From Ureaplasma urealyticum serovar 8 str. ATCC 27618 (GTDB lineage Bacteria; Bacillota_I; Bacilli_A; Mycoplasmatales; Mycoplasmoidaceae), in NCBI RefSeq assembly GCF_000169535.1, contig NZ_AAYN02000002.1, positions 550,642 to 614,641 of the forward strand: 64,000 nucleotides of DNA, written 5' to 3'. The position numbers and the translations under genes are program-made. Below are positions 13,909-44,038 of this stretch, in pieces (positions within the stretch are counted from its first letter, which is position 1; every line of letters begins with the position of its first letter). The notes beneath the pieces are model-generated. The model was not told where the DNA came from and did no database searches. It worked only from the letters and a program-made list of their open reading frames with translations.

Positions 13909-13913
13909 AAAAT

Positions 13914-13944
13914 AAAAAAACACCTTTAGCTTAGGTGTTTTTTT
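13914..13944. terminator. Bidirectional terminator between the converging surface-protein genes
   Basis: The arms AAAAAAACACCT (13914-13925) and AGGTGTTTTTTT (13933-13944) pair around a 7-base loop. A-runs and T-runs flank it on both sides, so it can end transcription from either strand. The giant gene stops at 13959. Confidence 0.9.
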
Positions 13945-13958
13945 ATTTTCTTAATTTA

Positions 13959-16900
13959 TTAAATTTCTGCTAATCCTATTGGATTTGAAACAACTCCATC
14001 AATGTAGGCAATATAAGCATCTTGTTCGCCAGTTTTACCTCAATATTTAATTCCTCAAAATACATATGTACCTGATGTGAATTTATTTTGTTTATTAACA
14101 CGGAAGTCACTTCAACCATTAAATCCAATTGTGTTATTTCCTTCAGTACTTAATTTACCTTCAGATGAATAATATAATTTATTATCTCTTAGGTTTTTAT
14201 AAACTACACGAGCATTTAAAACAGGTTCATCTCCTGGGTTAAAAATGTTTTCAAAATAACCACCAAATTTAACATGTCTTTCAGGATAGTTGGTAATTTC
14301 AAATTCATTTTTAATTATAGATTTAAAGGTTCCAATAAATCTACTTTGCGTGAATTTATAAACTGCATCAGATTCATATAATTTATTAACATTAGGTTTT
14401 GCATTATATTCATAAATAATGTGTTGATTACTATTATTAATATTTTTATTTAAATCATTATTAGGTTTTGAATTAAGCCAAACTTTCATTAATTGATATT
14501 CGTTTTCTTCACTTAAATCATTAGTTGAACCAATATAGATTTTCATAATAATTTTTTTAGTTATAGGGTCTTGAGTAATTTCAGGTGAAGCGAAATAATC
14601 AAGATTATATTTTATATTTTTAGTTACATTTTTAATATAAACTTTTGGTATTATACTTTGCCCTTGAGCTAAAATAAAGGCTTTGTCTTTGTTTGAAATT
14701 TCAAACATTAAGTATTTATATCCTTGGTCATTTTCATAAGTGTAATTTGATAAACTAGTTCGACTAGGTTCTAAAGTGAATGATTTTTGAATTTGTTGTG
14801 CTGATTTATCAAACTGCTCTTGAACTGTTGTATTATTTTGATTCAATAGTTCAATTTTATTTAATGTATAAACACGATTAGCAATTAAATTATTAAATTC
14901 AATTTCATAATTTTGCCTTCTACCTACTAAACTAATTTCTTTAGTTATCGACTTTTGACCTTGGTCATTATATACATAGCTTAATCGCACTTTTCTATTG
15001 TTATAACGACTATCAACATTTTGTAAATTTAAATTAATTTGTTGTGTTGTTTCATTAATATTTGTTGAAGTTAATGAAACAATTGAAGGCGTTACATCTT
15101 GTGTTTTAAATTTAGCTTTGTTTGGTTCGATAATATTTATATTAGTATTGTATACTAAATCAAATGTACCATTTGCCATTGGTCTTGAAACCCTAATTGA
15201 AGATAGAACATATTCTGTATTTGATTCTAAATTAAATAATTCACCTTTAAGAATTCATTTATAACCTTCACGCACTAAATTAGTTACTTGTGTAAATGAT
15301 TTAGTATTATCACCAACCTTATTAAATACTAATTCAAATTTAGAATTTGTATTTAACATTGTTCCATTATTGGTTGTTGTAATATTAAATTTATATTTTG
15401 CAGAAGTTGTTGTTGGCGTTTCTCAAACACCTTCTTTTGTAGCATTGTAATTACCAGATAACATAAATGTATATCTTTCACTACTTGCAGATGATGAGAA
15501 AATTTCATTATTAGCATTTTCGTTTGGACCATAAGCTAATTTGCTTGGTCTATTAACTAGAATAACTTTATCTAAGTAATATTCTCTTAACTCATCTAAA
15601 TTCGTTAATTTATGTATTAAATTAGCTGAATTATTATTGTTTCAAACTTCACTTACTCTTGCTGTATATTCTTTTGTATGCGATGTATCTCTTGTTGATC
15701 TAAAAATCAATCTATATTCTTGATTTTCTTCAAAGAATTTATCTTGTGAATCAATACCAAATTCCACTGTTGCTTCATTAACTTTTGTATCATTTTTAAA
15801 TGTTTTGCCAGATCGAATTGAAATTCTTGTTTGAGATGGTTTGTAATTAAATTCATTTTGTTTATTCGTATTATCAATAAATGTTTCTCAACTTGAACCA
15901 TTTTGAATTTCAATACGTTCAAATTTATATCTTCTATTAGGTAACAATCTTCTTAAACTAAATTGATATAGTTTATTAGCATTATTAGTTGTTAACTTAA
16001 TTGGATCTGATTCTCAATTTGTACGATGACCATTGTTATTATCTATATAAGAATATACAATACGTACATTTTTATTATTGAATTGATTTGCAACTCTTGA
16101 TAAAGTAACATCAACTTTACCTAATTCCATGTTTGGATTAAATAATGTAATTAATCCTGGATTATTTACATCACCACGAACAATACTTACAATAGTTGGT
16201 TTAGCATTTAATGTTTTGAATTTGTATGTTTGAGCACCACCAAATACAACATTGTTTTTATTAGCTGTTAGCATTCATTTTGCTAAAGGTGGTTTGTTAA
16301 CAAATTTAACGTTTGTTAATTTATATTCAGTTTCTGGTTTTAATCCTGTTAGGATTCAAGTAATTTTTGCGTTGTTTTTATTGTTTACATTAACACCACT
16401 TAATTTACCAACAAATTTCTTTGTTTCTTGTGGTGATTTCATTGAAACAAATGTTGCTTCAACTTGTTGATCATTTTCAAATACTTGATCAGTTGAAGTA
16501 ATATCAACGCTAATATTAGCTCCATTCTCACTAATATTAGTTGCTCAACTTGAGCTATTAATAGTTAGATATGAATTATATGGAGTCACGCCAAATTTAT
16601 GTGTAATACCAGTTGTTGTTAAATCACTATAATTATTTGAATTGTTTGTATTAGTAATTTGTGCTTTAAAGAATGTGTATTCACGGTTAGTTGTTAAATT
16701 GTTTAAATTAAAGCTATAGTCTTTTTTGTTATTAGCAGCTAATGGCACTTCATTTGTTCAAACAATAGTTCCATTATTGTCTTTATAAGCTAATTTAATC
16801 TTACGTCCAACATAACTATTGTTTACTCCAGAAACAACCACATTAATTGTTTGGTTTGTTTCTTTAACTTCAGATTTTGTTGAACTAATACTTCTAATAG

Positions 16901-19900
16901 TTGTAGGACCTGAAATCGTTGTAAATTTATGATTTGAATTAATTTCATTATATACAACGTTATTAGTTAATAAATTCTCATAAGCTTTGGGTGGTTTTTG
17001 TTTAAACTCAACCTTAACAACACGATACTCAGTTTGTTCTTCTAATCCACTTGATATATCAATATTTAAATCAGCTTGACTTCCATCAGATTTAACATTT
17101 GATAATCGTTTTGTTCATTTAAATGATGGAATAATTTGGGTTTGACCTTGTTTTAGTAAATAAACACTTACTTCTTGATCGTTTGCTAAAACTTTATCAG
17201 CTGATTTAATTGTTAACTTAAAGGTTGCATTCGTTGCACCTAAAGTTGTTGGAGCAGAATATTCAATACTTGTTGCTGATGGACTACGTTTAAAGATATT
17301 AGTTAAACTATTATTTTTACTTAAATCAACAAAACTATTATCGTTTGATGTACTACTAATTTGAACTTTTTCAAAAGTATAATTTCTATTTCCCACTAAA
17401 TTATTAATAGTAAAATCATAATTCTTTTTATTTTTAGTTAATGTGATTAAACCTGTTTCGTATTTTTCATTGTTTTGATCACGATAAATTAGTTTTACTT
17501 TACGGTTATTATATTCATTATTAACACCAGAGAAAACAGCATGAATTGTTTGATTACTATTACTAATTGTACTTTGATCAACACTTAAACTATTTAATAT
17601 TGTTGGTCCAGCTTCTGTTGTAAATTTATAATTTGCATTAGTATTAGGAATTGTATTACCAGGTGATAAATTTTCATTCGCTAATCGTGGTTTTGATGTA
17701 AACATTACTTTAAGTAGTTTATACTCTGTTTGTTCATTTAATCCACTACTAATATCAACATTAATTGTAGCTTCAGTTTTATTTTGATTTACACTGCTAA
17801 TTTTTCTTGTTCATTGTAATGGTGTACCATTTGGTTCACTTGTTTTTACAAGATAAACAACCACATCTTGATTAGTTTCAAAAACTTGATCTGCTGATTT
17901 TAATTTTAGTGATAAATTAGCGCCATTGTGTGTAATATTTGTTGGATTAGTTCATTCAATACTTGTTGTTGAAGGTACACGTTTAAAGGTGTTATTAACA
18001 TTTGTTGCTTTTGATAAATCAGTGAAATTAACACTATTCGTACGATCATTAATTTTAACATTTACAAAACGATATGATCGGTTAGCAGGTAAGTTATTTA
18101 ATACAAAATTATATGTATTAGTATCTTTAACTAATGTTACTGTTCCAGTTTCATAAGTTTGGTTATTATTGTCTTGATATACTAATTTTACTTGACGATC
18201 TTTGAATTGATCATTAACCCCTGAGAATGTTGCACTAATTGTTTGTATATCAGTACTAATATTTTGGTTTGTAACACTTAAACTATTTAGCATAGTTGGA
18301 CCTGCTAAAGTTTTAAATTTATGAGTAGAATTTACATCTTCATAAATTACATTATTTGTTAATAAATTAGTGTGTGCTTTTGGTGGTTTTTGAGTAAATT
18401 CAACTTTAACAACTTTATATTCAGTTTGTTCATTTAATCCACTACTAATATCAATACTTAAATCACCTTGACTACCATTATTATTAACGTTTGTTAATGT
18501 TCTTGTTCATTTAAAGTTTTGATCAATACTATTACTATTTTTAGGTAATAAATAAACACTTACTTGTTGACCATTTGCTAAAACTTGGTCATCTGATCTA
18601 ATTGTTAATTTAAATGTTACATTATTTGCACCCAATGCAGATGGTGCACTATATTCTATAGTTGCTTGTGATGGTTGACGTGTAAATGTATTAGTTAATC
18701 CACTAGCTTTTTGTAAATCAGATGAATTATTATCATTTGTATTTTTAATTTTTACGCTATCAAAACGATATGAACGATTCGCTGGTAAATTATTTAATGT
18801 AAAAGTATAATTTTTATTATTTTTTGTTAATGAAACTCAATTAGTTTCATATGTTGCATCATTATTATCTTTATAAATCAATCTAATTTGACGATTGTTA
18901 TAACTATCATTAACTCCAGATACCACTGCGTTAATTGTTTGACTATTAGTATTAATATTATCATTTGCTACAGTTAAACTATTTAAAACAGTTGGACCAG
19001 GTTGGGTTTTGAAACTTGCACCATACAATGTTGCACTAATGTTTGTGTAAATATTACTTGATTTTGTAACTGAGATCGTTGATAAATTATATGTTGAATC
19101 AACATCTAAACCTGTTAATTCACCTTTAATAAATCATTTATTACCTTCTTTTGATAGATTAACAGTTGTGGTTTTTGATGAACCACCATTTTTATTAAAT
19201 GTAACAGTAGCAGTAGCATCAGTTCCTAATTCACCATCGTTATCATTAGTTGTAACTAGGAATTTAAAGTTTACACTAGTATCAGTTGTTGGTCATTCAC
19301 CTGATTTTTGAATTGTTGAACTTGATGGTTTAATTTGTACTTCACGACTAACATTATTTTCTTTTGAAATAATATTAGCATCAACAATGTTATTTGAATT
19401 TGCATCAGTTAAGTAGTAAACATCCACTAATGTATAAAGTTGGTTTGCTTTTAGATTATTTAAAACAAAGTTAATTGTTGAAACACCATTAGTATTATTT
19501 AAAGAAGATCCATTAACAACATCTGTTTCAACTATTTCATTATTTGTTCCTCTAAATTTAGCTTTGAAAAGTAAATTATTGATAATCTTAGGATTTGATT
19601 TTAGTTGGAAACTGATTTGAACATTATTTTTTTGATTTGCTTCTTTAACAATTCTTATATTACTTGTTGGACTTGTTAATTTAAAGTCGTTACTAATTGT
19701 TAAAGTAGGTGATGAACCATTGTTAATAATATTATTATCTACACTTGTTCCAATGTTTTGGGCTGCAACACTTGGTTTTGTAGCAAAACTAATATTTGAA
19801 ATATTTGTATTAGTATTAAATTCTAAATTAGTTAATGTTGTTTGTAAGTATTTTTGATTTCCACTAACTACTACATTAGTTGTTACTGATTGATTATTAC

Positions 19901-22900
19901 CATATCTAATTGTTGCTTGATCATTTGCTTTTAAAACATTATCAGGATCGTTTAAAACAATCTTAACTGTTGTTGATTTTAAATTATTAGCAACACGATT
20001 GCTTGTTTCTTCAATGCTAACTGCACTAACTGCAGCAGTTCTTGTTGTAATAAAACTATCTTTTAAATTAGTTTGTTTTGGGAAAGTTGTTACACTTGTG
20101 TCATCAACTAAATTAACACCAGTTAAAGTATAAGTTCGATTACGTTTTAAACCAGATAATGTAGCACGATAACTAGTTTTATTTTGTTCAATATTAATAG
20201 TTGCTGAAATTGTTTCGCTTGAATCACTTGATGAATATACTAGTTTTAATTGTTTACCAACTCATGCTTTTTTTACACCACTTAATACTAAATCAACATC
20301 TTGCGAAGTTGTATTGATTGATGGTGTTGATGTAATGCTTGTTAGTTTATGATCACCAATTTTTGTTGTAAATTGATAATTTGAACCATTAATGTTATCA
20401 ATAATAATGTTATTTTCTTTATTATTAACATTATTTTTAGCTTTAGTAGGTTTATTTTTAAATTGTAATTCAACAAGTTGATAAGTTGTTTCTTCTTTAA
20501 AATCATTACTATTACTTAAGTCATGACTTCAAGTTGCTTCTGTTTTATCAGTATTTACATTACTTAAAGGTCGTGTGTATTGTAATCAAGTACTTTGATT
20601 ATCAATACTTTCTTTTGGTGCAAATCAAGCAATTACTTCTTGATTGTTTTCTAAAATTTTATCATCTGATTTAATTTTGAAATTAAAGTTTACACCACGT
20701 GTGCCAACAATTGTTGCACTTGCATCTGTTCATTCAATACTTGTATTTCCTGGGTTAATAGTGAATGTATTAGTTGCATTATTTTCTTTTTGTAAAGAAT
20801 TAAATTCAGCACCATTAGGAATTGTATTGACTTCGATTTTATCAAAACGATACTCACGGTTTGAAACTAAATTATTTAAAACAAGATCATAATCATTTTT
20901 ACCTTTAACTAAATCAACTGTACCACTAGTATATACTTGATCATTATTATCTTTATACACTAATCGAATTTGACGATTAGCAAATTTAGAGTTAACACCA
21001 GATAAACTAATGCTAATTGTTTTTTGATTATTAGCATTATCTGATTTCTTACTAATTGTTTTTAATACAGGATCACCAACTTGTGTTGTGACACTAATAT
21101 TTGGTTTATTAGTAATATTTATTCTAAAGTTATCATGAACACTGCTTGGTTTTGATAAAGTAATATCTTCTAATACATATTTCGTATTAGGTGTTAAATT
21201 AGTTAATTTACCACTAATTGTTCATTTATCACTTTCTTTTGCTAAATTTGCAGCACTTACAATTGTATTTGATCCATTTTTAAATTTAACAGTCGCAGTA
21301 ATTCCATTAGACAATGTACCATTATTATCTTCAGTGCTTACACTAAATTTATATGTTGCTTCAGTATCACTTGGTTCACTTCAATTACCTTCTTTAGCAA
21401 TTGTTGTGTTTCCTGGACTAATAAGAATTGTTCGACTAACACTATCATTTGATTTAACTACTTTATTAGCCTCAACAATAGCATTGTTATTTAAATTGTA
21501 GTAAAGATCAGTTAATGTATATAGTTGATTTGCTTTTAAGTTTTTTAAAACAGCATTAATTGTTTTTTGACTACCATTTGTAACCACACTATTACCATTA
21601 ATTACTTCTGATTCAACAACATCGCCATTTGTAGCTGTGAATTTAGCTTTTAGTTTTAGATTATGAATAATTTCTTCATTTACATCTAATTCAAGTGTTG
21701 TTGTCACTGATGCTTTTTCACTAGCATTTTTAGTAATTTGAACATTAGTACTTGGACCACTTAATTTAAAGTTGTTATTGATTGTTAGTGCATTGTTTGT
21801 ATCAATTGTACTATCATAAATTTTATTAGTATTACTATGACCGATAGCAACTGCAGCTTTAGGTGGTTTTTGACTAAATTTAATTTTATTAATTGTTGTT
21901 ATTCTATTTAATGCTAAGTCAGTTAATGTTGCGCTAAGTTTCTTTTGACCATTAGCAACACTAATTGTACCTGTTACAGTTTTGTTAGTATTATAAGTAA
22001 TTGTTACTGTTAATCCATTTGTTAGTACATCATCTTGATCATTTAATGTGAATTCAACATTAGCAGTTCCTAAAGCAGTTGCAGCACGATTTTGTGTTTC
22101 AACAATATTTACTACACTAACTTTATTATTTGAACTAATTGTAAATACTTTATTTAATCCATTATTTTGTGGTAAGTTAGATACTGCATTTTGATTATTT
22201 GGATTAATTAATTCAATCTTTTGTAATGTATATGTTCGATTGTGTTTTAATCCACTATTAATTACAAAATCATAAGATTTTTTACTCTTAGTTAAAACAA
22301 CTTCATTTGAACTAACACTAGTACCATCGCTTGATGTATAAGTTAATTTTACTTTTTGATTAACTCATGCATTTCTAATACCACTTAATGTTAAGTTAAT
22401 GTTTTGTGATAAAGTAGAACCAGGTGTTGTTGTATAAATTAAATCGCTTACTTTATGATCACCAACTGAAGTTGTGAATTGATAACTTGAGTTTTGGTTT
22501 TCAAAAATAATATTGTTATTAGTATTAGTTGATTTTAAAGCTTGGTATGCTTTCGTTGGTTTATTAACAAATTCAACTTTAACTAGTTTATAAGTTGTTT
22601 CTTCATCAAAATAATTACCACTTCTTAAATCAAGCGATGCAGTCGCTTCAGTTTTATCATTATTAGTTTGAGAAAGTTTAGCAGTTGAGAACATTTTTCA
22701 ACTATTTTGATCACTAACACTATTAGCAGGTGCTAATCAGAATCGAATTGTTTGATTATTTTCTAATACTTTATCAGGTGATTTAACTTTGAAACTAATT
22801 TTTACTCCAGTCGGACTAATTTCAGTAGCACTTGTTTGTGCATTTCATTCAATACTTGAATTACCAGGTTGGGTAGCAAAATTATCAACTACATTATTTT

Positions 22901-25900
22901 TAATATTTGTGTATTCAACTTCATTAAGTCCATTTTGAACATCAACTTTAGTTAATGAATATTGTCGATTTAATACTAGATTATTTAATGTTAGTGAATA
23001 GCTTGTTCTATTTTTCTCTAAAGTTAATTCGCCATGAATATCTTCACCAGAATTACTTCTATAAGTTAATTTTAGTTTACGTCCTGCATATTTTGAATTA
23101 ACACCACTTACATTAACAGTTACAGTTTGTGTATTAGTGTTAATTGAATCAGCAGTTTGTACAGAAACTAATGTTGTTGCATCAACTTCTGTTGTAAATG
23201 TAATATTTTGTTTATTACTATAAACAATTTTTAAATCACTATGTACTTTTGTAGGTTTGCTTAAACTAATGCTTTCTAGTGTGTATTGACTATTTGGACT
23301 TAATCCACTTAAATTACCTTTAATTAAGTATTGACTACCTTGTTTGATGATATTAACTTTAGTTTGTTTTGTTTGATTATCTTTTTTAAATACAACTGTT
23401 GCTTCTAAATTATCTAAAACATCATTACCATCTAAACTAGTTACTGTAAATTCAAAACTAGCACTATTTTCACTAACTGTTCAATTGCCATGTTTACTAA
23501 TTGTTGTATCTTTTGGTTTAGTAATAATATTTTTAACAACATTATTATCTTGTGTTAATTTATTGCTTTCTTGTGGAGTAGCATTTGTATTGTTATCACT
23601 ATAATAGTAAATTCCATTAAATATATATTGTTGATTTGATAAAAGATTTTTTAAACTAAATTCAACAATTTGATCGCTTCCACTCATCTTAATCTTAGTA
23701 TCATCTAAAACATCACTATAAACAGTATCACCTTTTGTATTTGTGAATTTTAGTTTAAACTTCAAGTTTTTACTAATGTGTTTGTTGATTTTAACTTTAA
23801 TTGATTGACTAGTTTGATTTGGTGTGTGTTCAATAGTTTGTGAATCGTTTTGAATTACAACTTTAAAGTCATTATTAATAATTAATTTATTATTTTGTGG
23901 TGTGCTATTTGTTAATTCATAAATAACATTATTGTTTGCACCAATATTAGTTCCTGCTTTTTGTGGTTTAGTTTTAAATTCAATTTTATTAATCTCAAGA
24001 TTTTCATTAAATACTAAACCACTAATTGTTGCTTGTAAGTATTTTTTGCCTTTTTCGCTAACAACAGTTCCAACAACTTCTTGATTGTTTTTGTATGTAA
24101 TTGTTGCAGTTTCATTATCTGTTAGTACATCTTCTGGATCACTTAATTCAAAACGCATAGTTGCTTGTTTTAAATTATTAGTATTTCGATTAGTTGATTC
24201 ACTAACACTAACAACACTTACATATTGTTTACTATTAGTAATAAAACTATCACTTACACTATTATCTTTAGCAAATGTTGTTTTATTATTACCATCTACT
24301 AATTCAACTTTATTAAATGTATAAGCACGGTTTGGTTTTAAACCATTTAAATTAATAGTATAGGTTTTATTAGTTTTTGATAATGTAGCTTCACCAACAA
24401 TATCTTGACCATCAGATGATTTATATGTTACTTTAAGTTTTTTATTAACTCAACCATCATTTACACCATCTAAATTAACTGTTATATTATGTGAAGTACC
24501 ATTAGTTGTTGCATCTGATGTAATACTTGTAACTTTAAAATCACCAGGACTAGTTTTAATACTAATTGGTTGTGTTGGTTGTACTAGTTTTAGGTTGGTA
24601 TGTGTTTTTGTTGGTTTATTTAATAATTCTATACTTTGGAAAGTATAAGTAATTTCAGGACTTAAATTACTTAATGTTCCTTTTATGAATCAATTGTTTC
24701 CTTCTTTAACTAAATTTACTGTTTGTTCTTTATTAGTATTATCAGAACCTTTAAATTTAACTTTAGCTTGAAGACTATTTTCTAAAACATCGCCATCTTG
24801 GGTTTCAATTTTAAATTTGAAATCAAAACTATTTGGTCCAACATTGTTTGAATCATTAGTTTTAGTGATTGTACTATTACCAGGGGCAACAATAATTTCT
24901 TTAACCACATTATTAGCTTTAGTTAATTTATGATTTGAATTAATAGTATTGTTGTTTTGATCAACTAAATAATATAGTTCATCAAAACTATATTTACGGT
25001 TAGCATCTAAGCTACTTAAATTAAATTCAATAACTTTTTTATTACCTACTGTTTTAATTGCAGAACTTGCAATTGATACACTATCTTTGTTTTGTTGATT
25101 ATTATCTTTAAAACGAGCAATAAATCTTAAGTTAGGAACAATTTTTTCATTAACATCTAAATCTAAACTAATGCTTACATTATTTTTGTTGTCATAAGCA
25201 ACATTCATTGTTTTAGATGCTTCATTACTTAATGGTCCACTAACTTTAAAGTTATTTTTAATTACTAATTGTTGACTATTATTAGTTGTTGAATCAAAGA
25301 TTTTATTTAAATTATTTAATCCAACATTAGCATGAGCTTTAGTTGGTTTAGTATTAAATGTAATTGTTTTAATAACTGCATCTTGATTTAGTACTAATTC
25401 AGATAATGTTGCTTGTAAATACTTATTATTACCTTCAACAACAATTTTACCAGTTGCATTTTTATTGTCATCATAAACAATTGTTGCTTGATCATCAACT
25501 ACTAATACATCATCAACATCAGTTAAAGCAATTTTAACTTGTGCACTTGTTAGTACATTAGCATTTCGATTTTGTGTTTCAACAATGCTTGTTGCACTAA
25601 TTGCTTGTGATGGATTAACACTAAATTTATTTGTTAAAGCATCATTTTTTGGGAAATCAACTTTAGTGTTGTTTGGTCCAATTAATTTAATTGAAGTTAG
25701 TGTATATTCACGATTGTGTTTTAATCCATTTAAACTAAAGTTAAATGTTGATGTTGTATTATTATCGTTACTACTATTGTAATTTGTTGGTTTTGTAATT
25801 GTAACTTCATTACTATTAACAACATGTCCATCATTTGAAGTATATACTAATTGAACTTTTTTATTAACTCAATCGTTTTTAATACCACTAACAGTCATTG

Positions 25901-28900: not shown

Positions 28901-31900
28901 TTTGCGTATTTGCTGGTTTAGTTAAAGTAATATTTTTTAGTGTATATGTAGTATCTGGTTCTAAACCTTCAATACTTCCTTTAATTAATCAATTGCCACC
29001 TTCATTTACTAAATTAACAGTTTTTGTTTTAATATTTTTATTAGTTGCTTCAAAACTAACTGTTGCACTAATTGTATTGGCTAGTGCACCAGTATCTTGG
29101 CTTTCAACTTTAAATTTAAAGTTTGCTGAATTAACTCCTGCTTTTGATCAATTTCCATGTTTACTAATTGTTGTTGCACCACGTTTAACATGAATTTTTT
29201 TAACTACATTATTGTTTTTTTCAAGTTTTTGTTGTTCATTAACATTATCATTATTTGCTTGTTTATCCAAATAATATATTTCATTAAATGTGTATAATTG
29301 ATTTGAATCAGGATTTGATAGTACAAATGTTAATGTATGATTATCACTTGTTCCTTTTACAATAGCACTATCTTGAACAACTTCACTATATTTAACATCA
29401 TTTTTATTATTAGTAAATTTCAATTTGAATTTTAAATTTTTACTAATGTGTTTATTAATTTTTAATTCAATTGTTGAATTTACACTTGCTTTATTTGTGT
29501 ATTCTACATCTTGAATTTGATTATTTGTAGGTCCAACAACTTTAAAATCATTGTTGATTGATAATGTTTGATTATTATTAGCGTTAGTATTATCATAAAC
29601 TACACCAACATTATTAATTGCTTTAGTTGGTTTTTGTTTGAATTCAATTTTTTTAATAATTGTATCTTTATTAAATACAAGATTAGACAATATTGCTTGT
29701 AGATATTTTTTGTTATTAGAACTATCAATTACAACTTGAGCATTTACTTCTAAACTATTAGTTCCATCACTACTATATGTAATAGTTGCTTGATCATTAG
29801 CACTTAAAATATCATCAGTATCAGTTAATTCAAACTTCACTGTTGCTTCTTTTAATTTATTAAATGCACGATCAGTTGATTCACTAACACTAATAACACT
29901 AATTGGATTTGCGCTAGCAGTTACTGTAAATGTATCATTTACATTTGATTGTTTGTCAAAACTAATGTCTTGTGCATTAACATCTTTAATTTTTATTTCA
30001 TTTAAAGTATATGTTCGATTACGTTTTAAATTATTAATTGTAAAATTATAAGTTTGTTTACCCTTTTCTAAACTAATTTCATCAGTTGTAATACTATGAC
30101 CATCATTTGAAGTATAAGTTAAATAAGCTTTTTTATTAATTCAAGCATTTTGAATACCAGTAATAGTCATTGTAATAGTTTGATTTGTTGTATTAATACT
30201 ATCATTTGAACTAATGTTTGTTACTTGATGAGCAAAAGGTGTTGTTGTGAAAGTATGTGTTGAATTAGCATTATCAAAAACAACATTGTTTTGATCATTT
30301 AAAGCTTTGTATGCTTTAGTTGGTTTTTGTTCGAATTCAACTTTAATTAGTTTATATTGTGTTTCTTCAGTTAATCCACTTAGACTAAATTCTAATTGAC
30401 CTTCATTAAATGAACTATTTACACTACTTAAGTTTGCTTCAACAATTTTTTGATCATTTGCATTATTAACTGCAACAAAAGTCGCTTTAACAACTTGGTT
30501 ATTTTCTAATACTTGATCATTTGTTTTGATTTTAAAACTTACTTTAGCAATATTAGCTGTGATTTCTTTAGCTGCATTAGTACCATATTCAATACTTGTT
30601 GTTGATGGATTATAAACAAATGAATTGCTTACATTACTTTCTTTTTGTAATTCAATATAAGTACCACTATTAGCTGTATTTTCAATCTTAATGTTTTTGA
30701 AAGTATATTGACGGTTTGGTAATAAATTACTTAGTATTAAACTATATGTTTTTTGATTTAATGTCAATGCGATTGGTTGACTTTCGATTTCAACATTATC
30801 GTTTCCATAAGTATAAACAACTTTAATTTTTTTATTAGCATAATCACTATTTACACCAGATAATGTAATATTAACGCTTTGTGTTTGATTTTGATTATTA
30901 TCATTTCACGTTAAATCATTTGCACTAACTTGTGTTAATACAGTATTTGATTGTGCAGTTGTAATATTGATTTGATTTTTATTAGTAATTTCAATTTTTA
31001 AACCACTATTTGTTTTTGAAGGTTTGCTAATTGTAATTGAATCAAGTGAATATTTTGTTTCTGGATTAAGATTATCTACATTACCTTCAATAATTCATTT
31101 GTTTGAACTTGCATCTTTTTTTAATTTTACAGTTTTTTGTTTTAAATGATTTTGAGAATCTTTAAAAGTAACTGTTGCATCTAAACTATTATCAAAAACA
31201 TCGCCATCATTTGTAGTTACACTAAATTTAAAGTGAGCACTATTGTGTTTTGGTGGATTTCAACTATTTTCTTTTGTAACAATTGTTTTATCAACTTTAA
31301 TTTCAACAAAACGATTTGCATTTAATTTTAAGAATTTAGTTGTTAAACTACTATTGTTTGTTGGACTAGTTGGACTATAGTATAGTTCTTTAAATGTGTA
31401 TAAACGATTTGATTCTAAATTATTAGACAAACTAAAAGTGATTATTTTTTTATCACCACTTGTTGTAATTGCAGTTGAGCTAACTGGTGTACTTCACACT
31501 TCATCGTTGTTGTTATCAACAAACTTAGCAACAAAATGTAAGTTTTTTGCAAGATGATCATTTACTTTTAATTCTAATGTTGTAGAAACATTATTTTTTT
31601 GAGTTGGTTCAAATGTTTGTTTTTGATTTAAACTTGGACCACTAACTATTAAATCATTGTTAATTCTTAAACTAGAATCATTATAAATTACATTTGAATT
31701 GTTTAAACCAATATATGAACCAGATTTGCTTGGTTGTATTTTAAACTCAATTTTATTAATATATGTTTCGTAATTTACTACTAAATTATTTAAAGTTGCT
31801 TCAAGATATTTTTTACCATTAACTGTTTTTACAATACCATTTGTAGTTCGATTATTATCATATGTAATTTCAGCTTGTTCACCATTAGTTAAAACATCAT

Positions 31901-34900
31901 CATTATCATTTAATTCAAATTGAACTTTTGCAGTAGTTAAATTATTTGCTTCACGATCAGCTATTTCACTAACATTAACAACACCAACATGGTTTTGTCC
32001 TAAAACAGTAAATGAATCACTAATACTTGCATCTTTAGTAAATGCTTCAACAGTATTTTCATTAACAAGTTCAATTTTTTCTAATGTATAAGTTCGATTA
32101 GGTTGTAAATTAGTTAATGATACTTCATAACTTAATTTATTTGCTTCTAAAGTTACTAATCCACTTGCAACTTCATTATTACTTGTTTTATAAGTTAATT
32201 TTAGTTTTTGATTAATTCAATCTTTTCTTAGACCATCAATTGTTACATCAACTATTTGTGTTGTATTACTAATTGAAGGTGATTTTGCTTTAATTTTTGT
32301 TGCTTTATAATCACCAGGGGCAGTAGTGTATGTAATTTGGTCTTGATTTGTAATTTTAACATTTAAATCTAAAGCAGCTTTGTCTGGTTTAGTTATTGTT
32401 AATGATTTTAGTTTATAAGTTGTTTCAGGTACTAAATGATCAATACTTTCTTTAATAATTCATTCATTATTTATTTGACTTATATTTGTTGTTAATGAAT
32501 GCTCTTGTTGTTTATCATCTACTAAAACTACTGTAACAGGTGTACTTTGATCTAAGACACCTAAATCCTGTGTATCAACTTTAAATTTAAAGAATACTTT
32601 AGTTGATGTATTTGTTAAACCAGGCTCTTGTTTTATAATTGTAGTAGCCCCAGGTTTAACAAGAATAGTACGATTTACATCATTATCATTAATAACTTTA
32701 TTTTTATCAATTGGATTAGCACTTATATTATTATCAACATAATAATATAAACCAGCAAAAGTATATAGTTGGTTTGATGATAAGTTTGATAAATTAAAAG
32801 TTAGTGTATATTTATTAGTTCCAGTTGCTGATTTTGTGATTTGATCATCACTAACAACTTTACTATAAATAGTATCACCTTTAGTATTAGTGAATTTTAA
32901 TTTGAATTTTAGATTTTTACTAATATGTTTGTTTAATGTCAATTCAATTGTTGAACTAACATTATCTTTTTCATTGTAATTTATTTCTTTTTTAGCATCT
33001 AAATCATTAGCGTTTGGTCCGCTAACTTTAAATTCATTACTAATTGATAATGCTTGTGCATTTGAAGTTGTATTATCATAAATTTTATTAGCATTACCAA
33101 TATTAAAAGCAGCACGAGCTGGTTTTTGAGCAAAAGTAATTGTTTTAATTGAAGCAGTTTTATTTAATTCTAAATTTGTTAATGTTGCTTTTAAATATTT
33201 TTTATTTGAGTTAGTATCTTTTCTAATAGTACCAGTTGTAATTAAATTATTATTATCTTTTGTTGTATATGTAATACTTGCTTGTTCATTATCACTTAAT
33301 ACATCATCAGCATCATTTAATTCAAAACGCACTTTTGCAGTTGTTAAAACATTAGCTTGTCGATCTTCATATTCTTCAATGCCACTAACACTAACAGTAT
33401 TAGTTGTATTAATATTAAATGATGAGTTATTTAAATTATTGTTTTTTGGTAATTCAACTTTATCTTGACCATTTATTAATTCAATCTTTTCTAATGTATA
33501 TGAACGATTGAATTTTAAACCATTAGAAATTATTAAATCATAACTTAGTTTATTTTTTTCTAAATTTTGTGGAGTTGTTGTGACTTTTGAACCATCACTT
33601 GAGACATAAGTTAATTGAATTTGTTTATTAACTCATTCATTTTTAATACCACTTAGTGTTACATTAATGTTTTGTGTTTTTGTAGGTGTTGGTTGAGTAG
33701 TGTATGTAATATTATTAACTTTATGATCTGCAACTTTTGTTGTAAATTCATGTTTTTGCATACCAGTTTTGTATTCGTAAATAATATTATTAGCACTATC
33801 ATTAACATTAGTGTGTGCTTTTCGTGGTTTTGATACTAATTCTACTTTTCAAATGTAATATGTTGTTTCATCTTTTAAATTATCAAAAACAGGATTACTA
33901 ATTGAAGATTCATTACCATTATTAACTACATTAACAATATCTCTTGTTCAAACAAGTTGTCTTTGATTATCAGTATCAGATTTGAAATAAATTCTAATAT
34001 CTTGATCATTTTCTAAAGCACGATCAGTTGTTTTTATTTTTAATTTAGGTAAACTAACTTGATTTGTTTGGATTTCACTATCAGTTGGATTAGTGTATTC
34101 AAAAGTTGTTGATCCAGGTTGAGTTATGAAATTATTGCTTACACTAGTTGTAAGAATACTAAAAGTATTTGAACCAACACTTGATTCAATCTCAACTTTA
34201 TGAAGTCTATAATTTCTATTTGTAATTAAATTATTGAAACTAAAACTATAATTTACTTGATCTTTAGCTAAAGTTTGTTCAGCACTAATTGATTCATTAC
34301 CATTATTATTACTTACATAAGTTAATTTAATCTTACGACCAGTGTATTTTGAGTTAACACCACTTACAACAGCATTTATAGTTTGAGTTTGTGTACTAAT
34401 TGGTGATGTAGCATTTAATGATACTAATGTTGTTGGTCCAACTTCAGTTTTAATAGTAATTAATGGATTATTATAATCATTTAATAGCAATGAACAATAA
34501 GTTTTAGGTGGTTTTGTTAAAGTAATGCTATCTAATGTATAAGTTGTATTAGGATTTAAATTATTTAAATTACCTTTAATAATGTATTTGTTTTGTTCTT
34601 TAGTTACAATTGCTGAAACTGGTAATAATTTTTGATTACCATTTTTAAATGTTACTATTGCACTTAAATTCTCTAATACATCATTACCATCTAAACTATT
34701 GATTTCAAATTTAAAGCTTGCAGAATCATCACTTACTATTCATCCATCACTTGCTTTAGTAATTGTTGTAGTATCTGGCGCAATTTCAATTACACGTTTA
34801 ATATCATTAGCTTTTTCTACTTTTTTATTTTCATCAATATTATCATTTGCACTACTATCTAAATAGTATAAATCAACAAAAGTATATGATCGATTTGAAT

Positions 34901-37900
34901 TTAAGTTAGTTAATTTGAAATTAATTAAATCTTGACCATTGTTATTAGTAATTAAATTAGAAGGTAAAATAGAACTATATACTATATTGCCATTATTATC
35001 TTGAAATTTAAGTTTAAAACGTAAATTTTTACTAATATGAGGATTAACTTTAAATTCTAATGTTGATGAAACAATATATTTATTGTTAGCCACCATATTT
35101 TGTGTGGTATTAGAATTTGATGATAATGGTCCAATAACTTTAAAATCATTATTAATTTCAAATACTTTAGCATTTTGAGTTGTTTTATCATAAACAATAT
35201 TTGAATTATTAGCACCAACTTTAGTATGTGTTTGAGCAGTTGTTTTAAATTCAATTTGATTAATTACTGCATTTTGATTAAAATCTAAACCACTTAATGT
35301 AGCTTGTAAGTATTTTTTATTACCTTCAACTACAACTGTTCCTGTTGCTTTTACATTACTATTATATGTAATTTCAGCAATATCATTTGTTTTTAGAATA
35401 TTATCAATATCTTCTAGTTCAAAACGAACATGAGCTTTTTGTAATTCGTTTGCAACACGATCTTGGTATTCTTCAATATTTTTAACACTAATTGGATTTT
35501 GTAAGTTTACATCAAAACTATTGGTTACACCACTATCTTTTGTAAACTCAACACTTTGATTTTGGTTAACATTTAAAACATTAACTTGTTTTAAACTATA
35601 ACGACGTCCTGGTTTTAAATTAGATAAAGTGAATTTATATTCTTTTTTTGTGTCACTTAAAATAACATCTTGATTGTTGTTATTAACAAGATGTACGCTT
35701 GTTTTAATATCTTCTTCACCACTTACATTTGAACTATAAACTAATTCAACTTTTTTATTTCTTCAATCACGCTCAATACTATTTATTGTCATTGTGATTT
35801 CGTGTGAACTAGTATTTGTAATTGGATCAGATGTTACACTAATTACTTTATTATTAGCTTTGTTTGTTTTAAATGTGTGTGTTGAAGATGGATCTTCATA
35901 AACAATATTTCCGCTATTTAAATCTTCATAAGCTTTGCTTGGTTTTTGTACAAATTCAACTTTTGTTAATTTATAAGTTGTTTCAGCATTTAAACCAGTT
36001 AAATTAGTTGTTAATGTAACTTCATTATTATTTGTAACATTGCTTAAATTAATTTCTTGAGTAATTACTTGACCTTCATCAGGTGTTAGAGTAATCTTAA
36101 CTTTTTGATTATCTTCAAACACTTGATCATGTGATGTAACTTTAAAAGTTAATGTAACACTATTATCAGTTTGATTTGTTGCAAAATTATTATTATCAAC
36201 AACAATATTTGTTTTTGAATGAGCATAAGTTATTGAATTTTCTAAATTACTATCATGTTCTAGATCAATAAATTTATTACTTCCAACACTATTTTCAATT
36301 TGAATTTTTTTGAATTTATAAATTCGATTAGGAATTGATGGAGTTAGTGTTAAACCATTATAATTTGTTTGATTTTCAACTAATGTTGTAGTTGTTGTTT
36401 CAATTGTACCTTGTTCATCATTGCCATTACCATATGCATAAATTAACTTAATTTTTTTACTAGCATATTGTTTATTAACGCCAGAAACTACAATACTAAA
36501 ATCAACAGTTTTATTAGTGTTTGAACTATTGTTATCTAATTGTAATGTTAATTTATTAGGTGTGATTGATTCTAATACAGTTTTATTAGCTGGTGTTGTA
36601 AATTTAATTTGATCTTTATTTTGAATTTCAACAACAGGTACTTCATTAGCTTTTTTAGGTTTGTTAATAATTTGTACAGATTCTAAACTATATTCTGTAC
36701 TTGGTACTAAATCTGTAATTGATCCTTCAACAACTCATTGATCATTTTCTTGTTTTAGATTTGCTTCAAATGATTTGTTGTTACTAAAATTAACTTTAAC
36801 TCTTGTTTGCGCATCTAAAGTATCTTGATCTTGTGAAATTAATAAAAATTTAAATGTTGCAACTTGTGTATCTGGAACTGCATTAACTCAATTATTAGAA
36901 CCTTTTTTAGTAAATGATGTTTGACCTTTAATTGTTTTAATTTGTAGATCTTGATTATTTGTATCAATTAAAACTTTGTGGCTTTCATTTAAATCTTGAC
37001 TTGTAGCATTTTTGTCAAAATAATATATGCTATCTAATTTATATAATCGATTACTTACTAAAGTTTTAAAAACTAATGGAAGTTTGCTTACTCCATTTGT
37101 ATATGTAATATCAGTTGGTTGTAATATTTCACTGTAAACAACATCAGTTTCATCATTGACATTAACATATTTAGCTTTAAATGTTAGTGTTTGAGCAATT
37201 TTTTGATTAAATAAACCTTCTAAATTAATTGTTTTATTACTTAATTCAGCAACAGTAACTTCTTGAGGGTTAGCTATTGTTGTAGATGTTGTAATTTTTA
37301 AATTATTGTTAATAACTAAATTAAAATTTGAAACTAATGCATTATTGTAAATAACATTGTCTTTGTTTTTACCAATTGCACTTGGTGCATTCTTAGGTTT
37401 TGTTTTGAATTCAATTTTATTAATTACACTATTTTTGTTTAATACTAAATTATTAAATGTGGCTTCTAAATATTTTTTGCTATTTTCAACAATAACTTTA
37501 GCATCAACACTACGATTAATATCGTATGTAATTGTTGCAACTTCGTCTTGTGATAATAAATTTTCATTATCATTAACTTGGATTCTAATTTTAGCTTCAT
37601 TTAATTTGTTGAATGCACGATCTTGTGTTTCAACTAAATTAATTGGTGCAATTGTATTTTGTGATAGTACTTCAAAACTATCTTTATTATTGTTTACACT
37701 ATTACTTAATGGAAAATCAATTGTTTGTTGTGGATTACCAAAACTTAATTCAAGTTTTTTAAATGTATATTTACGTCCATAATTTAAATTATTTAAAGTA
37801 AATGTATATGTGTTTGTAGTGCTATCTAATGTAATTTCTTGTGAAACAACATCATTTTCATTACTTGCATTTGAACTATAAATAATCTTAGCTTTCGTAT

Positions 37901-40900
37901 TAGTACGTCATTCTTTTTTAAGTCCACTAATTTTAACTTGGATGTTTTGACTTGTTGTTGCAATTTCATCATTACTTGTAATAGCAACTACTTGGTGACC
38001 ATAACTTATTGTTGTAAAACTATGTTCAACAGCATTATTTTTGTATTCATAAACAACGTTGTTTGTATCACTGTTTAAATTAGTATAAGCTTTGGTTGGT
38101 TTTGTTTTAAATCAAACTTTAGTTAGACGATATTTTGTACTTTCTTGTAGTTGACTTAAATTATAAATAACATTTGATTTATTGTTTTTGTATACAAGTT
38201 TTGCTTCTTGCTCAATTGTTTGAGTTTTATCACCATTAACGGCTTCAAATGTCGCCATAACAACCTGATCATTTTCAAATACTTGATCATTACTTACTAA
38301 ATCAAAGCTCACTGATGCATAATCTGACTGAGTGTTTGTAGCAAAACTATTGGTTTGTACATCAATTCTTGTTGTTGAAGGTTTAAAGACAATATTACTT
38401 GGTGTTATTTGTGATGTGAAATTAATTTTTTGTTCATCAACTGCATTTGCGCTTGTATTATTGTCAAAATAATATAACCCCACAAACTCATAAGCACGGT
38501 TATTGATTAAATTATTTAAATTAATTGTTAAATTATTTTTGTTAAATAATGTTGGTTCGCTTCAAACAATTTCATTATCACTTAAACGTTTGAATTGTAT
38601 ACGTAAATACTTATTATTTAATAAATAATCATCTGCTTGAATTTCAACTTGAATAGGTACTGATTTATTAGTTTCATCAATACTTTGAGGTGTGTATTTT
38701 AAACCATTAATTTCATTTTTAAAGCTAATTTTTGATAGTGTATCGTCTGTAAAAATAACGTTATTATTTTTGTTATTAGCAACATTAAATAAAGCTTTTT
38801 GTGGTTTATTTTTAAATACAATCCGTGAAATAGCATAATTTTGATTAATGCTTAATCCACTAAGTTTAAATTGGAAATATTTTTTATTATTTTCAACAAT
38901 AATTTGGGTTTCAATTCCTAATCATTCTTGATCATTAGCTGAATTAGTTGATTTATAGAAAACATCAAATTGATCTGTTGTAGTTAAAATATCATCAACA
39001 TCATTAATTTCAAGTTTCGCAATGATTGATGAGTTTGTATTATTTTCTAATGAACGATTAATGATTGATAAATTATTATTAGCTAAACTAACTGCATTAT
39101 TACTTGGATCAATACTAAAACTATCTTTAATGTGTGATAGTGTTAAACCATCTTCATTATTATTATTAACATAAACTCATTTTTTAAAATTATAAGTACG
39201 ATTTTTTAATAATTGTTCAAATTCAAAACTATAAGATTTTTGATCTTTTAGTAATGTAATTGGTTTTGATTTAATTTCTTTATGATCAGTTGATTCATAA
39301 ATTAATTGAATTTGTTGATTATCTTTAAAGTTTGTTCCAATACTAATTAAAGCTTGACCTAATACTTTTTCATTGTTTGCAAAATGATCTTTAGTTACTA
39401 AATTTACTAATGTTGTTTTTGCATAAGCAGTCTCAAAACTATTAGCATTAGTATCTAATTCATTAAAAATATAAGGTTTAATACTATCTGGATTTTTTAC
39501 TAAAGCACTAAAACGTTTTAGTGTGTAAACTGTTTTTTCTTTTAAACCAAATAAACTAAATTGAATTTGATTATTTTCAATTACTTTACCATAAGCAATT
39601 TGAATAATTGGTTTACCATTTTCAAGATATTCGTATTCTAATTGGATTGGATTGTCAATCTGTAATTTTTGATCTTGATCATTATAATCAACAAAAAGAT
39701 TAGTGCTATTAGCAAAAATTTCTTGTTTACTATTATTCTTATCAAAACTTACATCAATTGCATTTTGGTTTGTAATAAAGCTTTGTTCATATTTTGTTAC
39801 ATCATTTTTAAATAAATAAACTTTATTATTGTTTTCATCTAAATAATATAAGTTTTTAATACTATATTTACTATTACCTTTTAAACTAGTTCCTTTTAAT
39901 TCAACAATACCATTAGTTTTATTAAAACTAATACTTAGTGTTGGTTCATTTAAATCTTCAAGTTTATTATTTAATAAACTCAATTCACCATAAATTTTTT
40001 GATCATTTTTTAAAACATTATGTTCGTCATTAATTTCAAACGTTAAAGTTGTGTCATTATTGGCTTTTACATTAGCATTAAATTTAGTTCAAATCGGTTC
40101 ATTAATTCTAATTATTGAATTTGTAGTAAATTCAAAGTTTAAAACATCATCTTTAACTAGTTTAATTGGTTTTTCTTTGTTGTTTAATTCTAATAATTCA
40201 ACATCAACAACTTTATACTTTGTATTTGCATCTAAATGTGTGAAATCAAAGTTTAGTTTGTAATTATTAGTTTCTGGATCGTAAGTGGCAATGTATTTTT
40301 GTGTATCACTTAAATCACTAACTTTAGCAATTGTTAGTGCAAATTGACGATTATGAGATAGTTTATTTAAATCAAATAAACTTATTTGAAGATTAACAGC
40401 ATTTGGTGTTAAATTAGAAATTGTCGGTGTTTTTAAAACGATCTTACGTGCTTTAGTTAGATCATCATTAATTGTACCAACATCTTTGTTAATACCATTT
40501 TTATCTAAAATAGTTTTGTTTGGATGTTGACTTGGATCAATAATCTTATCAAACTCATAAATTTTGTTAGAATCAAATGGACTGTTGTTTGGATCAACAA
40601 TTGCTTTACCTTTATCATCGGGTTTAATTGGAACATGAATTTCATTATTGTTTTTATCTTTATAGATACCAATTAAATCTTTATTTTTTTGATTTGGTAT
40701 ATTAAACTCGTGTTTATTATCACCATTAATATTACCATTTTTTTGTTTATTGATAATTCGATCTACTAATGGAATTTCTTCAATATTAGCAACGTTTTTA
40801 TTATCAGCTTCAATTTTTGTTAGTGTGTATTTGTGATTTGGTTCAAAAGTTGTATCATCACTTGTTTTAAAATTAGCTTTACCATCTAATCCAATCGTTG

Positions 40901-43268
40901 CTTCAATAGTTTTTGTATTACTATCGTTATCATCAGTTTTAAATGTTAATTTAATTTTTTTATTAACTAAATTAGGATTTGAAAAACTAATTTCATAATC
41001 ATTATTTTCTTTAACTTTAGCAACTACTGTTGGTTTTTGGAATGAAGTATGATTATCACCATTTAATTGTTTTTCACCAATTAAATCTGTATTTGGCTGA
41101 CCATTTTGTTTTAATACTAATTTCTTTAGTGTATATGTATTTGGTTTTGATGGATCACCATTTGGTAAATTTTTTGTTTTAACAATAACTTTACCATTTG
41201 TATCAACACTTGTTTCAACTTCGTGTTCAACACCATTTTGATCAACAACAATAGCTTTTGTACTACCATTTGTTTGTGCTTTTTGTTTTAAATCATCACT
41301 TAATTCTTTTGGTAATTCAGTGTGGATTTCTAAATTTCCTTCATTATCGTATTCAAAACTTGGGCGTGAAGTTGGTGAACTTGGATAACGTTTATCAATT
41401 GTTATATCTTTTAGTTCAAAATCATTTGTATTAACAACTTTATTTAAATCATTGTTTTCAACTTTACTTAAATGATAAATATAACCTTTTGGTAAACTAT
41501 CACTTTCAAAAACAATTTTATTATTTTGATCAACAACACCAATCACTTTGTATTCTTTGTTATTGTTATCAACAAAAGTAGCAATTAATTTTTGATTAAT
41601 TAAATCATCATTTAAATTTTCTAAAATTTGTGCTTTTTTAGTTGCATCAATACTTGGTTTAGCTGCTGGTTTTTTAATTAATTGTTTTTGTTTACGTGCT
41701 AAATCAAAGTTTGAAACTAATACATTTTTTGGATTTGAAATTGAAACAATTCTATCTAATGAATAATTGTCATGGTTTTTTAGTAAACCAGTATCAAATT
41801 CAACTGTACCATCTTTTTTAACTTTTGCTAAAACTTGGTGTTCTTTATTATTTTGATCTTTAAAAATTCCATATACTTGTTGGTTAACATAATATGGCGC
41901 TACTTTAGCTATTAGGTTAATATCACCATTTTTTGTGTATTGATATGGTGTGTTTAGTTCATCAGAGTTTAAATTATTAATTATTTTGTTGTGGTATGGT
42001 ATATCTTGAAGGTTAGTAACGCCAACTTGGTTTGGTTTTTTAATACCAACAACTTCATATAAATTGTTATCACCTAATGATGAAACATCAAAAACAGCTC
42101 GTCCCATTTCATCTGTTTTTGCGTTAATTTTAATTTTTTTGTTATTTAAATCTTTTAGTGTTAATTCGATTGGTGTATTTTTTAGTTGTGTTCCTAAATC
42201 AACTTCATACACTTTTTTATTTTCAACAAATTTAACACCAGCTTTAGTAGGTTTTTCAATACTAAACTTGTGTTCATTTACTAATTCATTATTTGGTACT
42301 AAAACCTTGTTTAAATCCACATTATCAATAATTCGATCTAGTTTGTATTTGTGATTTAGTGGTAATTTTTTAGTATCAAAATGTGCTGCACCATTTTTTG
42401 CATTTGTTGCAGGTATTAAATGTTCTTTACCGTTTTCATCTTTAAAAACAGCAATTGATAATGCTGGATTTTTAATTTTATTTGTTAAATCAACTTTTAA
42501 AACAACATTACCATCTTTATTGTAAGTATGTGTCTTGTCAATTTTTTTAAAACTTGGATCAATATCATTAGTATTTACAACTTTAGTAATTGGATTAGAA
42601 TCTTTTAAGATGATGTCAGTTAAATGATAAACATTTCCATCTTTTAACCCACTTGTATCAAGATCAACTTTTTCATCTAAACCAACACGTGCTTCAATAG
42701 TATGGACTTGGTTGTTTTGATCAACAAATCTTGCAATTAAAGTTTTATTAACAAGTACTTTGTTTACTTTTGCTTCAATGTGTTTTTCATCTTTTTGATC
42801 TTCGTATATATTAACTAATGTAGGTTTTGAAATACTAATTTTTTGTTCTGGTCTTAATTTATCGTTTTCATGAATTACATTATTGTTTGAATCAACGATT
42901 TTATTTAATTTGTATTTACCTGGAACTGGTAAAGTTTTTGTATCAAATTCGAATTTGCCATAAGGATCAACTTTAGCTTCAACTTTATGTTCTTTGCCAT
43001 TTTCATCAACAAAAACACCATAAACATACTTATTAGCATATGTTTTTGGTAATTGTCCTTTAATGATTAAATCTCCATCATCATTAAAACCATAGAAATC
43101 ATTATCACTTAATTGATCGCTATCTTTTAAACGTAAAACAATCCCCGTAATAACACCAGCTCATGCTAAGTTTAAACTAGCAAGTAAAAAGAAAAGGCGT
43201 TGTTTGCGATTTTTCTTATTATTTTCGCTTTTTGTTATTGGGACTTTTTTTGATTTTTTACTATCCAT
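13959..43268 (-). CDS. Giant modular surface protein, DUF1410-type, 9,769 residues
   Basis: I read every codon from the ATG at 43266-43268 to the TAA at 13959-13961 and found no in-frame TAA or TAG. With TGA as tryptophan this is one frame of 9,769 residues, near 1.1 MDa. A basic N-terminus is followed by one hydrophobic helix at about 25-46 (SLNLAWAGVITGIVLRL). Next come nine repeats of about 100 residues (about 70-910, typified by FKDQNNKEH and YKLxKI). Then come about 35 repeats of about 230 residues, each with an NRxYxF-type motif, and a C-terminal unit ending GLAEI. A good AAGGAG site lies upstream. There is no catalytic motif, cysteine pattern or LPxTG. It is probably anchored by the N-terminal helix and exposed outside (inference). 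The DUF1410 assignment is from memory of ureaplasma families. Confidence 0.92.
14800..39980 (-). repeat. Array of about 35 units of about 0.7 kb in the giant gene
   Basis: The motif LxxNRxYxFxKI (or NQLYTFxxLYYL in every second or third unit) recurs with a spacing of 0.66-0.75 kb. Approximate positions include 16680, 17380, 18075, 18780, 19440, 20135, 20860, 21520 and so on to 39190. Each unit also holds VLxNDQ and KPxKAY-type segments, suggesting two beta-sandwich-like domains per unit. The units have diverged at DNA level, and I saw no long identical stretches. Confidence 0.85.
40500..43065 (-). repeat. Nine repeats of about 100 aa in the N-terminal part of the giant protein
   Basis: Each repeat has a line like xxGxFxDxNNxEHxVxA, a GKxxFDTxxL stretch, then YxLxKIV. 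Examples are GVFVDENGKEH, ARFVDQNNQVH, AVFKDENGKEH, GIFKDQNNKEH, ATFVDNNNKEY, VVDQNGVEH and GIYKDKNNNE. Repeats 7 and 8 are nearly reproduced in the gene at 52939. Repeats 1, 3, 4 and 5 have close counterparts in the gene at 55302. Confidence 0.85.
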
Positions 43269-43274
43269 AAATAA

Positions 43275-43366
43275 CTCCTTGCACACATAAAAAATACTAT
43301 TTTTATAACATTAAGAACTGCAACTAAAAAATGCTTATACAATGATAGCAAAAAAAAAAAAAAAAA
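43275..43366 (-). promoter_or_regulatory. Upstream region of the giant gene with a 17-T run
   Basis: Reading leftwards: 17 consecutive T's (A's on the plus strand, 43350-43366), a possible -10 TATAAG at 43334-43339, then the ribosome site AAGGAG at 43275-43280, seven bases before the ATG. A homopolymer of this length beside a promoter is a classic slippage site in mollicutes. The remaining spacer 43367-43544 is AT-rich with no gene visible. Confidence 0.6.
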
Positions 43367-43544: not shown

Positions 43545-44038
43545 GTTTAATAATTAAAATTTTAATCCTAAAGTTATTTTAAATGTTGGTAGTTGTGGCG
43601 CATTAAATAATCAACTAAAACTATTAGATGTCGCAATTGTTAACCAATGCCAATATTTAGATGTTGATGTTATTACTTTTGGTTATTTAAAAATCAAATT
43701 CCACGCTTAAACAAAATCTTTAATTTAGATAAAAATGCATTGAGCAAATCAAAAAAGAATTAGTTAAAAAAGAATTAAAATTTTGAATCGCTAATGTTGG
43801 TAGTAGTGATAGTTTCATCAACCAAACTAATGCATCCAATTTTTATGATGAACAAATCGATTTAGTTGATATGGAACTAGCTGCAATTGCACATGTATGT
43901 ACACGTATGTTAACCCCTTTAGTAAGTATTAAAATGGTTAGCGATCATATTATGCATCCAAGTTCAAATCAAGAACAATTCAATAAAAATTTGGTATTAA
44001 TCGATAAATGGTTTAATAAATATTTATTAGAATGTTAA
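43545..44038 (+). pseudogene. mtnN: mtnN 3' remnant closing copy A
   Basis: This matches the last two thirds of the intact gene at 51575-52267, including NVGSCGALN, DQCQYLDV-like, ANVGSSDSF, VDMELAAIAHVC and the VSDH segment. A one-base loss after GYLK (about 43695) shifts the frame. The first third is missing, replaced by the surface-protein block. It lies directly upstream of def copy B, which shows that copies A and B were once adjacent complete segments. Confidence 0.9.

Follow-up and report, generated by a model that had tools for sequence, protein, structure and literature searches.

The 64,000-nucleotide stretch of the Ureaplasma urealyticum serovar 8 strain ATCC 27618 genome analysed here (the window; C2:550642-614641, where C2 is the main contig of a two-contig, 881,828-bp assembly) carries one giant gene on its minus strand, encoding a repetitive protein of 9,769 amino acids (aa). 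In window coordinates, the gene and the signals next to it are as follows:

13959..43268, minus strand: giant gene, 9,769 codons (NCBI table 4), 1,093 kDa
43275..43280, minus strand: ribosome-binding site AAGGAG, -12 to -7 of the ATG
43299..43307, minus strand: candidate -10 element TATAAAAAT, a presumed assignment, conserved upstream of a 5,754-aa paralogue
43350..43366, minus strand: T17 homopolymer tract, candidate phase-variation switch, -98 to -82 of the ATG
13909..13949, no strand assigned: strong, bidirectional intrinsic terminator, 10 nt past the stop codon of the giant gene

Retranslation with table 4 gave a frame from ATG 43268 to TAA 13959 with a product of 9,769 aa and 1,093.3 kDa. 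The original prediction of a single 9,769-codon frame was thus exact in coordinates and length; it had left the strand unstated, which is minus. Tryptophan is encoded by 64 TGA codons and one TGG, and every codon before the stop was checked without encountering TAA or TAG, as had been claimed. Since TGA and TGG occur at a ratio of 19:1 in seven housekeeping genes of the window, code 4 is right for this organism and the reading of TGA as Trp holds. Translation with code 11 breaks the frame into 65 pieces. Of these, 28 reach 100 aa or more and 18 reach 200 aa or more, which makes the predicted "about twenty" separate proteins a fair estimate. The stop-to-stop frame comprises 9,783 codons (13959-43310) and includes an in-frame GTG at 43286 as a possible alternative start; we prefer the ATG because AAGGAG lies at -12 to -7 of it. 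A sequence with the base composition of this gene would have a stop with a probability of 0.076 at each codon, which gives a log10 probability of -336 for the absence of any stop, and the other five frames across the gene contain 188-1,477 TAA or TAG codons.

The giant locus is one constrained gene and not several. Domain homology is continuous in one frame from residue 64 to residue 9623, and codon-position bias is uniform along the gene, with a third-position GC content of 6-10% throughout. On the minus strand, the terminator-like sites inside the gene amount to one weak 5-bp stem at chance level, and a Shine-Dalgarno-like site precedes just one of the 67 internal ATG, GTG and TTG codons (a weak site before Met 9521). 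Internal methionine makes up 0.24% of the protein, compared with about 1.9% of ParC and 2.1% of a 1,305-aa housekeeping-type protein encoded elsewhere. Over the first 1,050 codons, comparison with the 5,754-aa paralogue yielded 0.142 nonsynonymous (dN) and 0.55 synonymous (dS) substitutions per site (dN/dS 0.26), and comparison with a 1,313-aa paralogue yielded dN 0.30, dS 0.68 and dN/dS 0.44. Without selection, some 170-840 stops would be expected at 0.1-0.5 neutral substitutions per site; none was observed. The minute probability of an open frame by chance, the low dN/dS of the first 1,050 codons and the unbroken domain homology together support the earlier proposal that selection keeps the frame open. 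The joining of several genes by misreading was considered and rejected, as the domains span every TGA and the gaps between them, from residue 64 to residue 9623, never exceed about 20 residues. A collapse or expansion during assembly was rejected as well; the longest exact repeat inside the gene measures 31 bp.

The product is organised into a predicted N-terminal anchor, two series of tandem domains and a C-terminal cap:

43128..43202, minus strand: N-terminal hydrophobic anchor, residues ~23-47, RLFFLLASLNLAWAGVITGIVLRLK, with the topology predicted from the positive-inside rule
40107..43079, minus strand: ~10 short domains (~95-100 aa) of DUF1410 type, residues 64-1054
14403..40106, minus strand: ~73 domains of ~118 aa with a predicted fibronectin type III (FNIII)-like fold, residues 1055-9622
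13962..14402, minus strand: C-terminal non-repeat cap, residues 9623-9769, beta-rich in a low-confidence model

The N-terminus consists of a Lys/Arg-rich head followed by about 24 hydrophobic residues (RLFFLLASLNLAWAGVITGIVLRL), a motif common to the paralogues. No lipobox cysteine is present there, the sole cysteine among the 9,769 residues lying far from the N-terminus. The composition of the whole product (13959-43268) is unusual, with methionine depleted (24 of 9,769 residues) and cysteine nearly absent (one residue), and the 5,754-aa paralogue is alike in this respect. A profile built from the giant protein itself delineated 83 contiguous tandem domains without long gaps between residues 64 and 9623. 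Those past residue 1,054 belong to two alternating classes, and finer clustering resolved them into modules FGDIFH (six domains) and FGDI (four domains) with a terminal (FH)n. Similarity between domains is maximal at offsets of 6, 16 and 22 domains, and the residue-level autocorrelation reaches its maximum at 2,589 aa, equivalent to 22 domains. This repeat pattern shows that the array grew by domain pairs, then by modules of four and six domains and then by blocks of, for example, 22 domains, and that the copies have diverged since.

Searches against family databases assigned the protein to DUF1410 (PF07198), with 351.3 and 101.7 bits in its two halves (20 and 11 stretches) at a Pfam gathering cut-off of 25.5 bits. 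The Pfam fn3 profile (PF00041) scored 14.5 bits, under its 25-bit cut-off, and matches to DUF3828 and CsgH were weak and likewise under their cut-offs. The NCBIfam search gave no significant match, the cap had no match in Pfam, and a profile search against the sequences of the PDB returned nothing significant (best azurin, E 0.08). An AlphaFold2 model of residues 4198-4558 consists of three beta-sandwiches with a predicted local distance difference test score (pLDDT) of 93.3. The top structural match to this three-domain model was the extender of a large bacterial adhesin (6xi3, Z 10.8), and FNIII arrays were among the closest folds (fibronectin, PTPRD, contactin and insulin receptor; VIA Z 8-10.8). 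Judged from the model, the repeat domains are FNIII-like in fold. They are not members of the fn3 family, in which we do not file the protein because its sequence score lies under the cut-off.

The giant gene is not alone. DUF1410-type genes of the same genome encode proteins of 5,754, 5,806, 1,313, 1,152, 1,025 and 774 aa, besides additional proteins with one to four domains of this type. The original prediction that a protein near 1.1 MDa would be exceptional therefore stands as to size and has to be modified as to singularity, given the paralogues of 5,754 and 5,806 aa. Together the three giant genes account for 7.3% of the genome, the 9,769-codon gene alone for 3.3%. Two smaller members lie in the window:

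52939..55263, plus strand: paralogue of 774 aa, DUF1410 family, with a T17 tract at 52855-52871
55302..59243, plus strand: paralogue of 1,313 aa, DUF1410 family, with (AT)8 directly before its ATG

Just past these genes, a type III restriction (Res) gene and two methyltransferase-like frames were noticed (window 61336-63810 and C2:614457-617802). In the comparison set, which comprised one genome per species, the Ureaplasma relatives G001, G003 and G004 showed weaker matches to the family, and G055, which belongs to another family, showed one. The last 646 aa of the giant protein had no match among nine other Ureaplasma genomes. Ureaplasma G003 has an open frame (C7, 1-14094) whose product, at least 4,698 aa long, is lipoprotein-like and carries 13 related domains in the C-terminal part.

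The DUF1410 proteins of Ureaplasma are the nearest known relatives by match (far over the cut-off), by genus and by the many members in the same genome, including the MBA region. The giant protein differs from them in its far larger size (83 domains) and in that most of the domains past residue 1,054 fall into two classes that are longer, have diverged and match the Pfam model less well. The MBA superfamily shares the DUF1410-type domain, which also occurs in MBA-locus proteins (C2:450847-456699), and the context of a surface antigen; in contrast, the giant protein lacks near-identical tandem repeats and carries a predicted signal-anchor instead of being a lipoprotein. The 25-nt recombinase site of MBA type, repeatedly present in the mba locus, was not found in the window at up to three mismatches. 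Tandem repeats of the mba locus have periods of 24, 45, 213, 252 and 276 bp, a combination listed for U. urealyticum serovar 8 (PMC3511179). The small contig C1 represents an alternative arrangement of this locus in which the 24-bp repeat array occurs twice. It is evidence for a rearranged mba subpopulation, and an alternative arrangement has likewise been described for serovar 8 (PMC3511179).

The giant gene is flanked by two copies of a housekeeping block, one of them decayed:

6347..12739, plus strand: copy 1, def-parE-parC-yqeH-nadD', with parE and yqeH broken by small deletions
12738..13866, plus strand: broken 3' end left over from a second giant of the DUF1410 family, which runs towards the giant gene and is joined to nadD codons 1-23
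43547..44026, plus strand: remnant of an mtn-like (nucleosidase) pseudogene, which closes copy 1
44046..50437, plus strand: copy 2, def, parE, parC, yqeH and the start of nadD, intact

The copies are 94.8% identical; the relatives examined carry the def-parE-parC-yqeH-nadD-mtn block once, in synteny. Copy 1 has two 1-bp gaps in parE, lacks 10 bp of yqeH, has nadD cut after codon 23 and retains mtn as a broken remnant. The giant gene lies between nadD' and what is left of mtn, with the remnant of a second giant adjoining; it therefore sits in the decayed duplicate copy, which is a hotspot for the DUF1410 family. Divergence between the copies is mosaic, dS being about 0.6 for def and the 5' part of parE and 0.006 for parC, a pattern suggestive of gene conversion or of import from another, diverged lineage. 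The parC copies are 99-100% identical, and a scan of genome contigs other than its own with parC matched only distant Bacilli. With parC in duplicate, genotyping of quinolone resistance could be confused in this strain.

The T17 tract upstream of the giant gene belongs to a narrow class of long homopolymers, and the gene of the 5,754-aa paralogue has a T15 run at the corresponding upstream position. In 290 kb of sequence, a sample partly picked around family genes, A/T runs of 6, 7, 8 and 9 nt occurred 1,124, 426, 56 and 1 times, runs of 10-14 nt were absent, and runs of 15, 16 and 17 nt occurred 2, 6 and 6 times. The counts of the run pattern cover the whole genome, where one further run of at least 12 nt, of 13 nt, was found; run lengths are sharply bimodal across the genome, at most 9 nt or else 13-17 nt. 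Fourteen runs of 15-17 nt lie on the main contig. Twelve of them stop 46-125 bp short of an open reading frame with a hydrophobic or lipoprotein N-terminus, another falls within the mba locus, and the last forms the T stretch of a terminator. Long runs are found, for example, at C2 positions 593991, 603496, 640642 and 802202, and runs of at least 15 nt are also present in most of the Ureaplasma relatives compared. The 14 runs look like a complete set of contingency loci. The (AT)8 repeat at 55286-55301 immediately precedes the start codon of the 1,313-aa paralogue and overlaps the expected place of its ribosome-binding site; it may be a second type of switch.

There is precedent for such switching. 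Promoter homopolymers switch the vlp genes of Mycoplasma hyorhinis (PMC10502178), and here too the promoter region of a predicted surface-protein gene contains a homopolymer tract. The Vlp proteins, however, are short lipoproteins with proven switching, whereas switching of the giant gene is predicted, and its tract consists of T and is placed further upstream. DNA inversion is an established mechanism of phase variation in Ureaplasma, and for UU171/UU172 a poly-AT tract has at one time been suggested (PMC3047005).

Taken together, we consider it probable that the giant gene encodes a membrane-anchored surface filament of about 0.3 µm, a shield, spacer or adhesin that is probably phase-variable by promoter slippage. 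The N-terminal 47 residues would form a membrane anchor with its N-terminus inside and the chain outside the cell, where about 83 FNIII-like domains would make up an extended chain whose free C-terminus bears a small, separate cap. At 3.5-4 nm per domain, the spacing in other FNIII arrays, 83 domains would span about 0.3 µm. Such a filament probably acts as a long shield, spacer or adhesive; shielding has a precedent in M. pulmonis, whose long Vsa proteins have effects on both biofilm formation and phagocytosis (PMC10502178). Transcription would probably be switched at random as T residues are gained or lost in the T17 run ahead of the promoter, in the manner of vlp. We hold more tentatively, at slightly under even chances, that this near-minimal, human-associated bacterium turns a titin-like megadalton filament of ~0.3 µm and 83 FNIII-like domains on and off at random, within a genome-wide set of about a dozen poly-A/T15-17 promoter switches of membrane and surface proteins. 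Several points speak against the filament and its switching. The dN/dS between the internal domains is 0.85, from which constraint is not provable because these comparisons are near saturation. The C-terminal model has a pLDDT of 68, lower still in the cap, and export of a polypeptide this long through Sec is unproven for a mollicute. A poly-T tract is missing before the gene of the 5,806-aa paralogue, which shows that members of the family can do without one, and T17 lies upstream of the likely -35 region and not clearly between -35 and -10.

Other explanations have to be weighed against the filament. That an assembly error or a decayed pseudogene accounts for the frame is highly improbable: a repetitive gene flanked by 6.4-kb direct repeats does invite the suspicion, but its longest internal exact repeat is far under Sanger read length, the frame is intact with a uniform codon-position bias, and the published assembly has 9.9x coverage, with 890 kb by pulsed-field gel electrophoresis against 874 kb (PMC3511179). 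The chain may instead be translated whole and then cut into smaller surface proteins, without a megadalton filament ever being formed. Long surface proteins of mollicutes are frequently processed, and a repetitive array would tolerate cuts between modules; yet no internal anchor, signal or lipobox was seen, the chain has a single cysteine and no long linkers between domains, and released pieces would be left without membrane attachment, which makes processing improbable. Somewhat less credit still is due to the idea that the gene is mainly a sequence reservoir whose domains recombine into the smaller paralogues (774, 1,313 and 5,754 aa) to vary antigens, with length in itself not being the function. 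DNA similarity of 70-81% over 0.6-2.1 kb to the adjoining paralogues, a 63-nt exact match to one paralogue and the adjoining remnant of another giant would fit this idea, but most repeat units are 20-65% identical, too divergent for frequent exchange, and the gene has its own promoter region, ribosome-binding site and terminator as well as purifying selection on its N-terminal 1,050 codons.

As to expression, the poly-T tract might be a fixed, UP-like promoter element and the gene not phase-variable at all, a reading that we regard as unlikely though the most serious of these competitors. A/T-rich upstream elements can raise transcription without slippage, and T17 lies about 45-60 nt upstream of the likely -10 element. 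A fixed element, however, has no need of a narrow class of long, slippage-prone runs (15-17 nt, n = 14), 12 of which precede membrane or surface reading frames, and vlp offers a precedent at a site of this kind (PMC10502178).

Giant bacterial surface proteins are already known (PMC12863079, PMC11573180). In Apilactobacillus kunkeei, Giant1-5 form a cluster of extracellular proteins of 3,000-8,000 aa that takes up about 6% of a small genome (PMC12863079), similar in protein size and in genome share to the three largest genes here (7.3%). They differ in architecture, with beta-solenoid heads, helical rods and SH3b wall binding in place of FNIII-like beads and a predicted membrane anchor. Long bacterial adhesins such as the "large adhesion protein" 6xi3 share a tandem beta-sandwich extender region with the giant protein, to which they have no detectable sequence relation. 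Secretion and anchoring of adhesins of this type proceed by other routes. The sequence is public and the gene is undiscussed in the open-access papers searched; no paper on it or on the poly-A/T tracts was found, which is weak evidence as only open-access literature was searchable, and DUF1410 had no match there either. Giant surface proteins and promoter-switched mycoplasma antigens are thus each known, and their combination in a near-minimal genome is a variation on these, with no new system involved.

The locus shows how giant arrays grow in a reduced genome, from domain pairs to modules to 22-domain blocks. A genome of less than 0.9 Mb spends 7.3% on three giant genes for probable surface proteins, and so large a share implies that they bring the cell a strong advantage where it meets its host. 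Export of a 9,769-residue chain, and the poly-A/T15-17 tracts as a possible surface-switching programme, are the questions that it raises. If the proposed reading is true, the filament of this wall-less cell would roughly match the cell itself in length.

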